Source: Rhodopirellula baltica SH 1
GTDB taxonomy: Bacteria; Planctomycetota; Planctomycetia; Pirellulales; Pirellulaceae
Assembly (NCBI RefSeq): GCF_000196115.1
Contig: NC_005027.1
Coordinates: forward strand, 4,712,001-4,776,000
DNA: 64,000 bases
Direction: 5' to 3'
Below the pieces are notes generated by a model that worked only from the letters and a program-made list of their open reading frames with translations, was not told the DNA's origin and ran no database searches. The translations under genes and the position numbers were made by a program. This document shows, one piece after another, positions 35,666 through 40,095 of this stretch (positions within the stretch are counted from its first letter, which is position 1; each line of letters begins with the position of its first letter).

Positions 35666-38518
35666 ATGGTCCGCTACAACCCCAACGAAATCGAACCTCG
35701 CTGGCAAGCCTACTGGGACGAACACCACACTTTCGCCACGCCCGAAAAAGTCGGCAAAAAGAAGCGCTACGTGCTGGACATGTTCCCCTACCCCAGTGGT
35801 GACGGATTGCACGTCGGGCACCCAGAAGGCTACACGGCGACCGACATCGTTTCGCGATTCGCACGGGCTCGCGGGGAATCGGTTTTGCACCCGATGGGAT
35901 TCGACGCGTTTGGATTGCCTGCCGAAGAGCATGCGATCAAGACGGGCGAGCACCCTCGCGTTCAAACTCAACGCAACATCGACAACTTCACTCGCCAATT
36001 GAAGATGCTCGGTTTCAGCTACGACTGGGACCGAGTCTTGGCGACCACCGACGAAGAGTACTTCCGCTGGACGCAGTGGATCTTCGGCGTGCTGTACGAC
36101 ACCTGGTTCGACCACGACCAACAAAAAGGCCGGCCGATCTCGGAGTTGCCGATCCCTGCCGAAGTCACCGCGGAAGGCGAGTTGGAAATCGAGCAGTATC
36201 GCGATTCAAAGCGATTGGCTTACCTCGATGACGCCTTGGTGAACTGGTGCCCAAAACTCGGCACGGTGTTGGCTAACGAAGAAGTGGTCGATGGCAAAAG
36301 TGAAGTCGGTGGGCACCCGGTCAAACGGATTCCCCTGCGGCAATGGATGTTGCGGATCACAGATTACGCCGAACGTTTGCTGGACGGTTTGGACGATCTC
36401 GATTGGCCAACCGGCATCAAGAAATTGCAGTCCGATTGGATTGGCCGCAGCACCGGTGGCGAAGTCGACTTCTACTTGCAACGCGGTGCCGCCGGCGACG
36501 ACACCGGTCCGTTTGTTGCATTCAAGCGAGCTCGCGAAAGTGAAGGCTTTCCAACCGATCCCGGCAAGGATTGCTTGCGTGTTTACACGACACGTCCCGA
36601 CACACTGTTCGGAGCGACCTACATGGTGGTCGCGCCCGAACATCCGTTGATCGATGTGTTGGTCAAACCCGAACAGAAAGACGAAGTCGACGCCTATCGC
36701 GAAAAGGCTTCGTTCAAAAGCGACCGTGAACGAACCGATGGCGATCGAGCCAAAACGGGCGTCTTCACGGGCTCGTACGCAATCAACCCTGCCGACGGAC
36801 GCAGCATCCCGATTTGGGTCGCGGACTATGTGTTGGCAGGTTATGGAACCGGCGCGATCATGGCCGTCCCCGCTCACGACGAACGCGATTTTGAATTCGC
36901 CGTGGCGTTTGATTTGCCTGTCATCCCGGTCGTCGATCCTCCCGCGGACCACAAGCAACGCGAAGAGATTTTGGCTGGCAAAGCTTGCTTCGCTGCGGAA
37001 GGCGTTGCGATCAACAGCGGTGAATACGATGGCAAAACAACCGCGGAAGTCAAAGCCGCTTTGACCGCTGAATTGGCCAAACAAGGCTTGGCCTGCGAAG
37101 CCGTCAATTACAAGCTGCGGGATTGGTTGTTCAGCCGCCAGCGTTTCTGGGGCGAACCGTTTCCCGTCTTGCACGAAATTGACTCCGAAGGCAACGCGAC
37201 CGGTGTGCGTCGCTTGGTCCCCGACGATCAATTGCCGGTGACGTTGCCGGAACTCGCGGACTTCAAACCTCACGGACGCCCCGAACCACCGCTCGCGAAA
37301 GCCGACGACGATTGGTTGATCGTGGAGCTCGACGGCAAACGCTACCGCCGCGAAACCAACACGATGCCGCAGTGGGCCGGTTCGTGCTGGTACTACTTGC
37401 GATACATCGATCCCAAGAACAGCGACGCATTGATCGATCCGCAAAAGGAAAAGGATTGGATGCCGGTCGACTTGTACGTCGGTGGTGCCGAGCACGCTGT
37501 GTTGCACTTGCTGTACTCACGGTTCTGGCACAAAGTCCTGTTCGATCGCGGCCATGTGACTTGCCCCGAACCGTTTGGCAAACTCGTCAATCAAGGCATG
37601 ATTCTGGGAGAGGTTGAATTCACCAGCTTCGTGGATCCGTCCGGCAAACATGTCTCCACGAAAGACGTCAAGAAAGACGCTGAGGGCAACCGCGTTCACA
37701 AGGCCACCGGCGAACAAGTCGAGATCGTTTCGTTGACGGAAGAACAAGTCGTCAAGAAAGGCGAAGGTTTTGTCTTGGCATCGGACGCCTCGATCAAGGT
37801 CGACAGTCGCGCTTTTAAGATGAGTAAGAGCCGCGGCAACGTGGTCAACCCGGACTCAGTCGTTCGCGACTATGGCGCGGACTCATTGCGTTTGTACGAG
37901 ATGTTCATGGGCCCCCTGGAGGCGACCAAGCCCTGGGCGATGAACGGCGTCGGAGGCGTTCGCAGTTTCCTCGATCGCGTCTGGCGGATGATCATCGACG
38001 AGCCCGAGGACGAGCTGAAGGTTTCCGACGCGGTGGTGGACACGGCCTGCGATGAAGAACAACTTCGCGTGCTGCACCAAACGATTCGCAAGGTCACCGA
38101 AGACAACGAAGCGATGAGTTTCAACACCGCGATTGCGAAGATGATGGAATTCACCAACCACTTCACACGCTGCGAAACGCGACCGCGTGAAGCGATGGAA
38201 TCGTTCTTAATCTTGCTGGCTCCCTACGCACCTCACATGTGCGAAGAACTGTGGAAGCATCTCGGTCACAACGAATCGATTTCGCTACAGCCTTGGCCGA
38301 AGTGGGACGAAGCCGCATTGGTCCAGTCCAGCATCGAGATTCCGGTTCAGATCAACGGGAAGGTGAAGGCGAAGATCTCGTTGTCACCCGATGCGAAACC
38401 GAACGAGATGGGCGAAGCAGCGCTCGCAGATCCTGCGGTTCAAAACGCGATCGGCGACAAGAAGGTTGTCAAAACGATCGCCGTCCCCGGCCGCATGGTG
38501 AACCTGGTCGTCAAGTGA
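35666..38518 (+). CDS. leuS: leucyl-tRNA synthetase
   Basis: 950 residues, class I synthetase charging tRNA-Leu. The ATP site HIGH-type motif is HVGH (49-52, within [15 protein letters not shown]) and the KMSKS loop is at 718-722. A CP1 editing domain follows the first Rossmann half, with [20 protein letters not shown] and the downstream [15 protein letters not shown]. The anticodon-binding domain ends with a C-terminal extension (VNGKVKAK-like [13 protein letters not shown]). It is longer than the E. coli enzyme (860), mainly from insertions in the catalytic half such as residues about 640-690. The tRNA-Leu(GAG) gene lies about 2 kb upstream on the opposite strand. The two folded repeats start two bases after its stop. 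Confidence 0.97.
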
Positions 38519-38520
38519 CT

Positions 38521-38610
38521 TCCTGTCGCACGGCGGTCTCCACCGTGAATGGGAATCAGCTCTCGGTGGGGGACCACCGAGCGACAGGTTGATGGCCGCA
38601 TTCTGGCGAA
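38521..38610. repeat. three-stem intergenic repeat, copy 1
   Basis: A 90-base unit. Its first 67 bases fold as an outer stem CTGTCGC (38523-38529) with GCGACAG (38581-38587), enclosing two hairpins: ACGGCGG/CCACCGT (38530-38546, one mismatch) and CTCGGTGG/CCACCGAG (38562-38581). A conserved tail TTGATGGCC...GGCGAA follows. Copy 2 lies 108 bases on. Confidence 0.8.
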
Positions 38611-38628
38611 CCTGCTCGGCAAATAACC

Positions 38629-38718
38629 TCCTGTAGCACGGCGGTCTCCGCCGTGAATGAGAATCAGCTCTCGGTGGGGGACCACCGAGCTACAGGTTGA
38701 TGGCCGAATTTTGGCGAA
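38629..38718. repeat. three-stem intergenic repeat, copy 2
   Basis: Same unit as copy 1, about 90 percent identical by eye. Its outer stem is CTGTAGC (38631-38637) with GCTACAG (38689-38695): both arms changed together relative to copy 1. The first inner hairpin is perfectly paired here (ACGGCGG/CCGCCGT). The second inner hairpin is unchanged. It ends 30 bases before the stop of the converging acyltransferase gene. Confidence 0.8.
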
Positions 38719-38748
38719 TTCGGCAATATCGTTTCTGAGGCGAACAAC

Positions 38749-40095
38749 TTAACCGGCCACGGCTTCAGCGACTGATGGTCGTCGCGTTCGTTCGGACACC
38801 TTCGCATACAAACGACGCAAAGCCTTTGTGATCGGTTGCTCGATCCGGTTGGTAATTACCAACGCCAATGCGAACGAGAACACGATCACAATCGCCAAAC
38901 ATGCCAACGGTGGCAGGCCGGCTTGATCGAACGTGTTCAACAACACGCAGCCCAGGTTGTTGTGACACAAATACAACGCGTACGAGATCGCACTGATAGT
39001 CACGAAAGGCTTCAATCGCAGGACGGGAATCTTTCCGTACGCGGCCATCGTGACCAGACCAATGATCAGCGCCGTCGCGGCTGGGTTGTGCTTGCCGTGA
39101 TCAATGCTGTGGAAGACACCCGCGGCAACCACGATGCCGAGCAAGTTCTTCCACTTTGGACCGACTCCGGTCTTGATCATGTAGAGCAAGAACCCGATCG
39201 CGAACAATGGAACGAAATCGAGTACCAGCAAATGTCTGACCGCAGACAGTGCGGCGAACAATGATGTGTGTCCATAGCTGGCCTGTGCCGCATCCAATGC
39301 CGGGCACAATACCAAGGACGCGGCCAACAACGATCCCCAACCAACGAAGTAGCGATGCAAGTAGCCTTTGCAGAACAGCGTCACCAAGACGAAGTAGAAC
39401 ATCATCTCGACTTGCAAGGTCCACATCACCGGATCGATGCATTCGTATCCAAAGACACGTGGCATCAACGTCAAATTAGCCAGGAACTGCTGCGTCGAAA
39501 CGGGCTGGCCGTTCAGCGGAGCGAACGTCACGATCCAAAGGTTCGCGAAGATCACCATCAGGAACAGTGGCACAATTCGAATCAATCGAGCAGCCACGAA
39601 ATCAACAGGCTTGCCACGACGCATCAGCGACATGCTGTTGACGAAACCGCTGAGGATAAAGAAGAGCTCGACTCCGTAGGCACCATAAGGCCACTCCCCG
39701 CCCAGCGGACTGGAGAAGCCAAACTTGACCGCATAGACGTGCGTGAAGTGAAACAGCACCAAGTTGATGGCTGCCATCGCTCGCAATGCGTCCAGCTCTA
39801 AAATCCGGCGATGCGGCTTCAGGGTGGACGGCGTTTCGACGGCGTCAGCCTCGCTCGTGTCTTGATCAGAATCTGCCGGCGAGAAACCAGCGAGAGACAC
39901 ATCACGGCCTTTGCGAACCGCACGTGCCAACTGGCGAACCTCTAAAGAGGACCGGACGGCGGGCAGTATCGGTGCAGACGGTTCTTCCCAGGTTTCCTGA
40001 ACGGGCGGATTGTCCCATGCATGCTCAGGCGGAAAATGACCTGAAAAAGGGCCATTCGCCGAGTCGGAATCCGATGGGGATGGGGCAGATTGCAT
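38749..40095 (-). CDS. acyltransferase-3 family membrane protein (OafA/YrhL-like)
   Basis: 448 residues. A long polar, Pro/Ser/Glu-rich N-terminus of about 95 residues precedes the membrane core. The core begins with the family signature ILELDALRAMAAINLVLFHFTHVY, with its characteristic R and H. It continues with GVELFFILSGFV, RLIRIVPLF and about ten hydrophobic helices, and ends SYALYLCHNN...IEQPITKALR. These enzymes O-acetylate or acylate sugars of lipopolysaccharide, peptidoglycan or exopolysaccharides from the inner membrane. It is convergent with leuS. The cytoplasmic N-terminal extension is unusual in length and has no recognised domain. Confidence 0.85.
   Translation of the reverse strand: MQSAPSPSDSDSANGPFSGHFPPEHAWDNPPVQETWEEPSAPILPAVRSSLEVRQLARAVRKGRDVSLAGFSPADSDQDTSEADAVETPSTLKPHRRILELDALRAMAAINLVLFHFTHVYAVKFGFSSPLGGEWPYGAYGVELFFILSGFVNSMSLMRRGKPVDFVAARLIRIVPLFLMVIFANLWIVTFAPLNGQPVSTQQFLANLTLMPRVFGYECIDPVMWTLQVEMMFYFVLVTLFCKGYLHRYFVGWGSLLAASLVLCPALDAAQASYGHTSLFAALSAVRHLLVLDFVPLFAIGFLLYMIKTGVGPKWKNLLGIVVAAGVFHSIDHGKHNPAATALIIGLVTMAAYGKIPVLRLKPFVTISAISYALYLCHNNLGCVLLNTFDQAGLPPLACLAIVIVFSFALALVITNRIEQPITKALRRLYAKVSERTRRPSVAEAVAG

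Follow-up and report, generated by a model that had tools for sequence, protein, structure and literature searches.

Tandem inverted REP doublets behind leuS in Rhodopirellula baltica SH 1 and a likely cognate transposase in related genomes

Two inverted doublets behind leuS

The window analysed here is a stretch of 64,000 nucleotides from Rhodopirellula baltica SH 1. Within it, a 950 aa ORF named leuS in a preliminary description (35666..38518, plus strand; ORF list and duplication alignment) lies convergent to a 448 aa ORF (38749..40095, minus strand; ORF list), which by eye is membrane acyltransferase-like. Two units of 90 bases with a 108-base period had been described directly after leuS. 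Repeat alignment confirmed the period and the tandem arrangement, with copy 1 (38496..38603) and copy 2 (38604..38711) on the plus strand forming a direct repeat of 108 bp units that differ at 12 of 108 nt (89% identity). However, the unit starts inside leuS and its folded part comprises 67 nt, not 90. Copy 1 consists of the leuS tail, a first REPIN and a downstream spacer. The last 20 coding bases of leuS and its stop codon (38516-38518) are part of the duplicated unit, and copy 2 carries a second leuS tail, again of 20 coding bases and a stop, which is altered at several places. Because copy 1 begins within leuS and copy 2 repeats the tail of the gene, the sequence points to tandem duplication in place, including the leuS end, not to two separate arrivals.

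The 67 nt core of each copy contains two outward CTGT(A/C)G heads, each with an 8-pair hairpin and a 3-4 nt loop, in inverted arrangement, and the first doublet follows the leuS stop codon after 3 nt. By alignment, folding and a survey of doublets, REPIN 1 (38522..38588, heads GTCG/GTCG, given without strand) is composed of an A-type REP on the plus strand (38523..38547), with a CTGTCG head and a CACGGCGG/CCACCGTG hairpin (7/8 pairs), and a T-type REP on the minus strand (38562..38587), with a CTGTCG head and a CTCGGTGG/CCACCGAG hairpin (8/8 pairs). REPIN 2 (38630..38696, heads GTAG/GTAG, likewise unstranded), delimited by the same means, has CTGTAG heads and 8/8 pairs in both its A-type REP (38631..38655, plus strand, CACGGCGG/CCGCCGTG hairpin) and its T-type REP (38670..38695, minus strand, CTCGGTGG/CCACCGAG hairpin). 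Two differences between the copies that had been pointed out previously are present: the outer stem is changed on both sides (C/G to A/T at 38527 and 38583), and where the first hairpin of copy 1 has a C-A mismatch, copy 2 has a repaired pair. The hairpins recur beyond chance: the first matched 3 times in the window, compared with 0.06 expected, one match being the palindrome's own other strand, and the second matched twice, compared with 0.01 expected. A separate terminator-like hairpin (38703..38724, plus strand) starts in the final bases of copy 2, and the consensus scan that located it is weak in this respect, giving 1 match compared with 0.6 expected in shuffles.

Folding z-scores of the repeat units range from -5.7 to -7.7. 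The fold first proposed, an outer stem enclosing two hairpins, was not the preferred one for RNA, as one long imperfect hairpin was 3 to 8 kcal/mol more stable for each copy, whichever strand was folded (on the plus strand, -41.9 vs -33.8 and -40.8 vs -37.8 kcal/mol). With DNA parameters a three-stem-like fold was best for copy 2 only. Both the long-hairpin and the three-stem fold have been named for Pseudomonas REPINs (PMC3116915; here and below, PMC sources are cited from parts of their text). A structured RNA had been put forward as an alternative. A non-coding RNA of this kind, or a leuS 3'-UTR element, selected for the three-stem fold would suit the stable folds, the distance of 3 nt from the leuS stop and the double change in the outer stem. 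Rfam lends it no support: at gathering threshold the 64-kb window contained only a tRNA elsewhere and nothing near the site, and three matches around the leuS site (E 0.073-0.3) fall far below gathering scores. As the long hairpin is the better RNA fold, no Rfam family corresponds, about 100 copies occur across the genome, the outer stem lacks covariation in 45 doublets and the doublet is absent at leuS in three relatives (G003, G006 and G012, see below), we regard this explanation as extremely improbable.

A dispersed family of GTAG-tagged repeats

A BLAST search with the 67-mer returned 53 matches at E ≤ 0.01 in the R. baltica genome (7,145,576 bp). A relaxed pattern matched 315 times vs 221 times for its reversed control, so that most of these hits are attributable to chance; at least 55 are free of mismatches. 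Within 37 stretches fetched from the genome there are 107 pattern matches (up to 3 mismatches), 95 of them with at least 6/8 hairpin pairs. A covariance model of the single REP, R1, was built from these 95 copies and leans to the R. baltica genome, in which it gave 103 matches at E ≤ 0.1 with the best 150 candidates scored. The heads among the 95 REPs are CTGTAG (55/95), CTGTCG (16/95), CCGTAG (6/95) and others (18/95), and the stem has 8 pairs with a 3-4 nt loop. GTAG or a near variant 0-2 nt ahead of a short stem-loop, which marks GTAG REPs, is thus evident, as are the high copy number and mostly extragenic location of such elements (103 R1 matches; 10/95 in ORFs). With ORFs called crudely, by length only, 10 of the 95 REPs lie inside ORFs of at least 150 aa, compared with 81% of random positions, and 3 inside ORFs of at least 200 aa, compared with 77%. 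As to plasmid carriage, the plasmid collection gave no match.

The loci fetched from four genomes contain 45 inverted doublets, of which 40 are heterodimers of an A-type and a T-type REP. The doublet heads are mostly 61-65 or 73-78 bp apart. The 37 loci of R. baltica contain 14 HH pairs within 100 bp, and tandem arrays occur with periods near 108, 127, 134, 170, 201 and 207 bp. Inverted pairs at set spacing and tandem arrays, both characteristic of REPINs and BIMEs, are therefore found. One same-strand tandem array (L070:1515-2572; G000:C1:6300.4-6301.5 kb, G000 being the R. baltica genome) advances in steps of 205-207 bp with one of 414, and its REPs, all headed by GTCG and most with a CACGTTGG/CCAACGTG stem, form a sub-family with a compensated stem. 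Elsewhere (L044:1555-2103; G000:C1:640.4-641.0 kb) five same-strand REPs spaced 123-134 bp apart make up a singlet array containing no doublets.

The 45 REP clusters are located between convergent ORFs in 28 cases, between co-directed ORFs in 13 and between divergent ORFs in 3, with 1 at an edge, vs 7 convergent, 16 co-directed and 6 divergent among the remaining ORF pairs in these loci (n = 29). In E. coli, REPs act as transcription-end or mRNA 3' protection signals. The doublets at leuS might similarly be kept, whatever their origin, as host signals that, between convergent genes, end transcription in both directions or protect mRNA 3' ends; the excess of clusters between convergent ORFs and the convergent orientation of leuS and its neighbour would agree with this. 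However, insertion followed by purifying selection would leave the same bias, the doublets are not followed by a T-run, and the sole terminator-like stem found is the different hairpin at the end of copy 2. Doublets are also absent after leuS in G003, G006 and G012. Retention as a host signal is thus unlikely in our estimation, although roles of REPs in gene expression have been named (PMC8266576).

Pairing in the hairpins and in the outer stem

The two-sided change in the outer stem had been taken as covariation that suggests selection on a fold, to be doubted if the unit were absent elsewhere or if other copies varied without keeping their stems paired. Covariation within the single hairpins was analysed in the 95 REPs, 12 of the 107 pattern matches having been dropped beforehand for fewer than 6/8 pairs. 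Here 97% of cells pair vs 86.6% when shuffled, 42 cells are changed on both sides vs 15.5, and covariation scores 0.291 vs 0.122, values that 0/500 shuffles reach in each case. Hairpin pairs with a double change (3 vs 2.5 shuffled, 254/500) and further pair types (9 vs 7.5 shuffled, 52/500) are not in excess. The short hairpins covary, then, on three of five measures, in numbers that kinship among the copies inflates. Sliding the hairpin partners abolishes pairing. All 79 matches with no more than one mismatch, which were selected on the head and 5' arm only, keep at least 6/8 pairs, and 65 of them keep all 8.

The outer stem behaves differently. Heads in the 45 doublets have 49 mismatches vs a shuffled mean of 46.9 (P 0.84); with one doublet per locus there are 34 vs 32.5, and two earlier subsets, of 14 and 14 doublets, gave P 0.29 and 0.28. 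The two heads are identical in 10/45 doublets, and leuS copy 1 provides the sole matched non-consensus head pair among the 45. Outer-stem covariation was consequently rejected as evidence of selection, since the doublets mismatch as often as shuffled heads do. The double change at leuS is real but isolated and is no property of the family; the most suitable reading is a single coincidence, or a single templated repair within the palindrome, and not selection acting on the outer stem. Of the earlier expectations, abundance elsewhere and continued pairing hold for the unit and its short stems, and pairing fails for the outer stem. The covariation argument is replaced by more direct evidence for a mobile family, namely sites both filled and empty, a nested insertion, and a probable cognate transposase bracketed by repeats of this family.

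The family and its transposase in related genomes

Twelve relatives from the genus (G001-G012, G003 being Rhodopirellula europaea 6C) were compared. R1 searches at E ≤ 0.1, with the best 150 candidates scored in each genome, gave 90 matches in G008, 73 in G002, 63 in G003, 50 in G004, 19 in G006, 14 in G012 and a single match in each of G009 and G010; G001, G005, G007 and G011 had none. Recurrence of the repeat in this genome and in relatives, which the preliminary description proposed to look for, is thus evident from the 103 matches at home and the many in several relatives. At E ≤ 0.001, R1 matched in 7 of 149 genomes of the family including R. baltica, the other six having 1-3 weak matches each, in a sample that evidently lacks the close relatives rich in copies, for which it contains no entries. 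Among named genomes the exact pattern was found in 6 stretches, all of R. europaea 6C.

Just after leuS, R. baltica carries two doublets, G002 carries one (decayed) and G004 three at other spacing. None follow leuS in G003, G006 and G012, although the loci of these three can still be aligned, nor in six more distant loci; in G005 the leuS search gave no match. Since G002 shares the position of the doublet, its sequence suggests that the insertion is probably older than the split between R. baltica and G002 and that the doubling came later. G003 is closer by its leuS end (92% identity to R. baltica vs 89% for G002) yet has no doublet, so that loss there or another history is needed. Another hairpin whose foot is GTAG (GTAGGCCATGTCTCACATGGC) follows leuS in G003 and occurs at a greater distance from it in G002 (L144, L147), and the gap therefore holds more than one repeat family.

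In G004, a 236-codon HUH/Tyr frame is situated between two doublets (L136, starts 1606 and 2449) in which the searched 16-mers occur without mismatch. A frame of 239 codons, 77% identical to that of G004, lies near a contig end in G002; of the doublets on either side of it in L137, the one at 134 is somewhat decayed and the other is at 978. Against Pfam Y1_Tnp (cut-off 23 bits) the G004 protein scores over at 24.7 bits and the G002 protein under at 21 bits; the match to the Y1 core begins at residue 141, with a long part preceding it. The best NCBIfam family for both is REP_Tyr_transpos (NF047646), at 51.4 and 51.3 bits and thus below its cut-off of 80. A profile of 20 relatives searched against the PDB had TnpArep 4er8 as top match (E 2.5e-6); the single G004 protein gave no match there. 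N-H-x-H, a W and the Tyr are invariant in 20/20 aligned rows. The HUH motif, catalytic tyrosine and RAYT relatives in the structure database that identify a RAYT are accordingly all found, and the G004 and G002 frames are likely the cognate RAYT of the leuS-type doublets, present in 2 of the 12 relatives within the part of the Y1_Tnp matches that was scanned.

No cognate RAYT was found in R. baltica itself among 8 Y1_Tnp matches (7 over the cut-off), none with a leuS-type REP within about 1.5 kb, or among three RAYT relatives. Flanking by the same REP, as expected for the RAYT of a REPIN family, is seen for none of the own-genome RAYTs found. The REP-associated transposase that had been anticipated is missing from these matches, whereas in G004 and G002 it has leuS-type doublets on both sides. 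In relatives, no leuS-type REP was present in the flanks of 30 Y1_Tnp loci, and a flank scan of 30 of 36 RAYT matches (three from R. baltica) was positive in G004, G002 and, for a GTGG variant, G008. In the latter a GTGG-variant REP flanks a RAYT, and a GTGG pair is found ~1 kb from another RAYT. Given three relatives of the cognate RAYT in R. baltica, one of these resident RAYTs, for instance that at C1:4637475, could still be moving the REPINs of this genome in trans. However, the RAYT at C1:5210329 (Y1_Tnp match C1:5210371) is adjoined by its own, different GTAG hairpins, and that at C1:370456 (Y1_Tnp match C1:370501) lies beside a GTAG repeat that differs in sequence and includes a G-T in its stem, recognised by eye and missed by a stricter scan. 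The third, at C1:4637475, is the best own-genome match at 42% identity to the cognate and has neither a leuS-type REP in its flanks nor a GTAG/GTGG hairpin of at least 8 pairs nearby. Mobility in trans is for these reasons quite improbable.

The flanks of the G004 RAYT align in R. baltica to C1:4553060-4554062 and C1:4551731-4552754. At this site the two REPs of one doublet are split by about 165 bp with an imperfect GTAG-AAC hairpin, and tblastn detected no trace of the RAYT. G003 has one lone compact doublet and no RAYT at the site. In G006 the doublet is decayed and interrupted by a GTAGAAC element, and G012 has remnants. A lone doublet is the expected remnant of recombination between two flanking doublets, and from these sequences we infer that the RAYT was lost here rather than gained in G002 and G004. 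With G003 lacking both the leuS doublet and the RAYT, losses or transfers beyond this simple story are needed. An element of the other, GTAG-AAC family inside a REPIN, that is a nested insertion, is seen at L063:1555-1861 (G000:C1:4552754-4553060) and L185:2140-2400, and its hairpins are of the kind that flank RAYTs of G003, G001 and G012. Variation that may bear indirectly on mobility includes this nested element at the RAYT site and a leuS-site copy number that differs among species.

Taken together, the leuS feature is very probably a tandem REPIN (BIME) pair, that is, miniature non-autonomous elements each of two inverted GTAG-tagged REPs, usually A-type and T-type, which would have been copied by a RAYT and whose family is probably orphaned here. 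The initial reading as REP/BIME elements moved by a TnpA-REP transposase agrees with the dispersed GTAG hairpins, the inverted doublets and tandem arrays, the mostly extragenic location and the flanked RAYT of G004 and G002. A RAYT, as a HUH/Tyr single-strand transposase, would read the GTAG guide and the hairpin foot and copy doublets around the genome. One doublet would have landed behind leuS in an ancestor common to G002, and slippage or recombination would then have duplicated it in R. baltica. Loss of the RAYT from this lineage would have left the family probably orphaned and decaying, with GTCG, GTAA and GCAG heads. Sister species with and without the RAYT would allow testing whether REPINs need it to persist.

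The leuS REPs resemble the GTAG REP families of PMC3733652 in their GTAG tag, 6-13 bp stems, short loops, HH dimers and complementary stem variants. That source attributes several REP families to R. baltica, along with many tyrosine transposase genes that repeats flank, and establishes tandem clusters and lost REPtrons for GTAG REPs; the covered parts of its text contain no mention of the leuS site, and the leuS REP family is perhaps already listed among its GTAG families. A literature search by genus found no matching paper, which says little as PMC3733652 writes R. baltica without the genus name, and the searched text of PMC2817692 contains no Planctomycetes terms. REPINs of Pseudomonas fluorescens SBW25 (PMC3116915) have another REP sequence, and the leuS-type doublets differ from them in their unlike arms (A-type/T-type in 40/45) and in that no cognate RAYT was found in the own genome. 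For SBW25, population reads showed REPIN excisions (PMC3116915). The TnpA-REP systems of E. coli and S. maltophilia share the GTAG foot, tandem REP/iREP pairs and a HUH/Tyr protein (PMC8266576). In S. maltophilia the REP stem is perfect over 8 bp and closed by a 3-nt loop (PMC8266576), which resembles the leuS-type REP; unlike the E. coli REP, the leuS-type stem is without a bulge, and the RAYT frame described above differs in its long part before the Y1 core. The TnpA-Y1 classes of PMC6006769 are alike in that their canonical REPs lie no more than 1 kb from the gene and carry GT[AG]G at the foot of the hairpin, and class 3 was noted there for Planctomycetes, with atypical structures.

Other RAYTs of the genus adjoin other hairpins. 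That of G008, 59% identical to the cognate, pairs with GTGG-CACG hairpins, and GTAG-AACA hairpins lie beside those of G003, G001 and G012 (45-46% identical). In G003, which carries 63 REP copies, a different REP adjoins the nearest RAYT (46% identical). Some of the related RAYT loci scanned had no such hairpin at all. It is an evenly balanced proposition that, within the genus, RAYTs and the guides and stems of their REPs diversified together (GTAG-CNCGG, GTGG-CACG, GTAG-AACA, GTAG-CNGAC and others), with some species keeping tens of REPIN copies after loss of the transposase. If true, the genus would constitute a natural experiment on REPIN persistence and head decay without a RAYT. The leuS-type repeat is of an ordinary kind, and the interesting part is the genus-wide pairing of REPs and RAYTs. 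Many related RAYTs across the genus bear their own GTRG hairpins, with guide and stem shifting as the RAYT diverges (L150-L179). In G012 (C1:6437942-6440280), three equal-scoring Y1_Tnp genes lie in tandem, about 1 kb apart.
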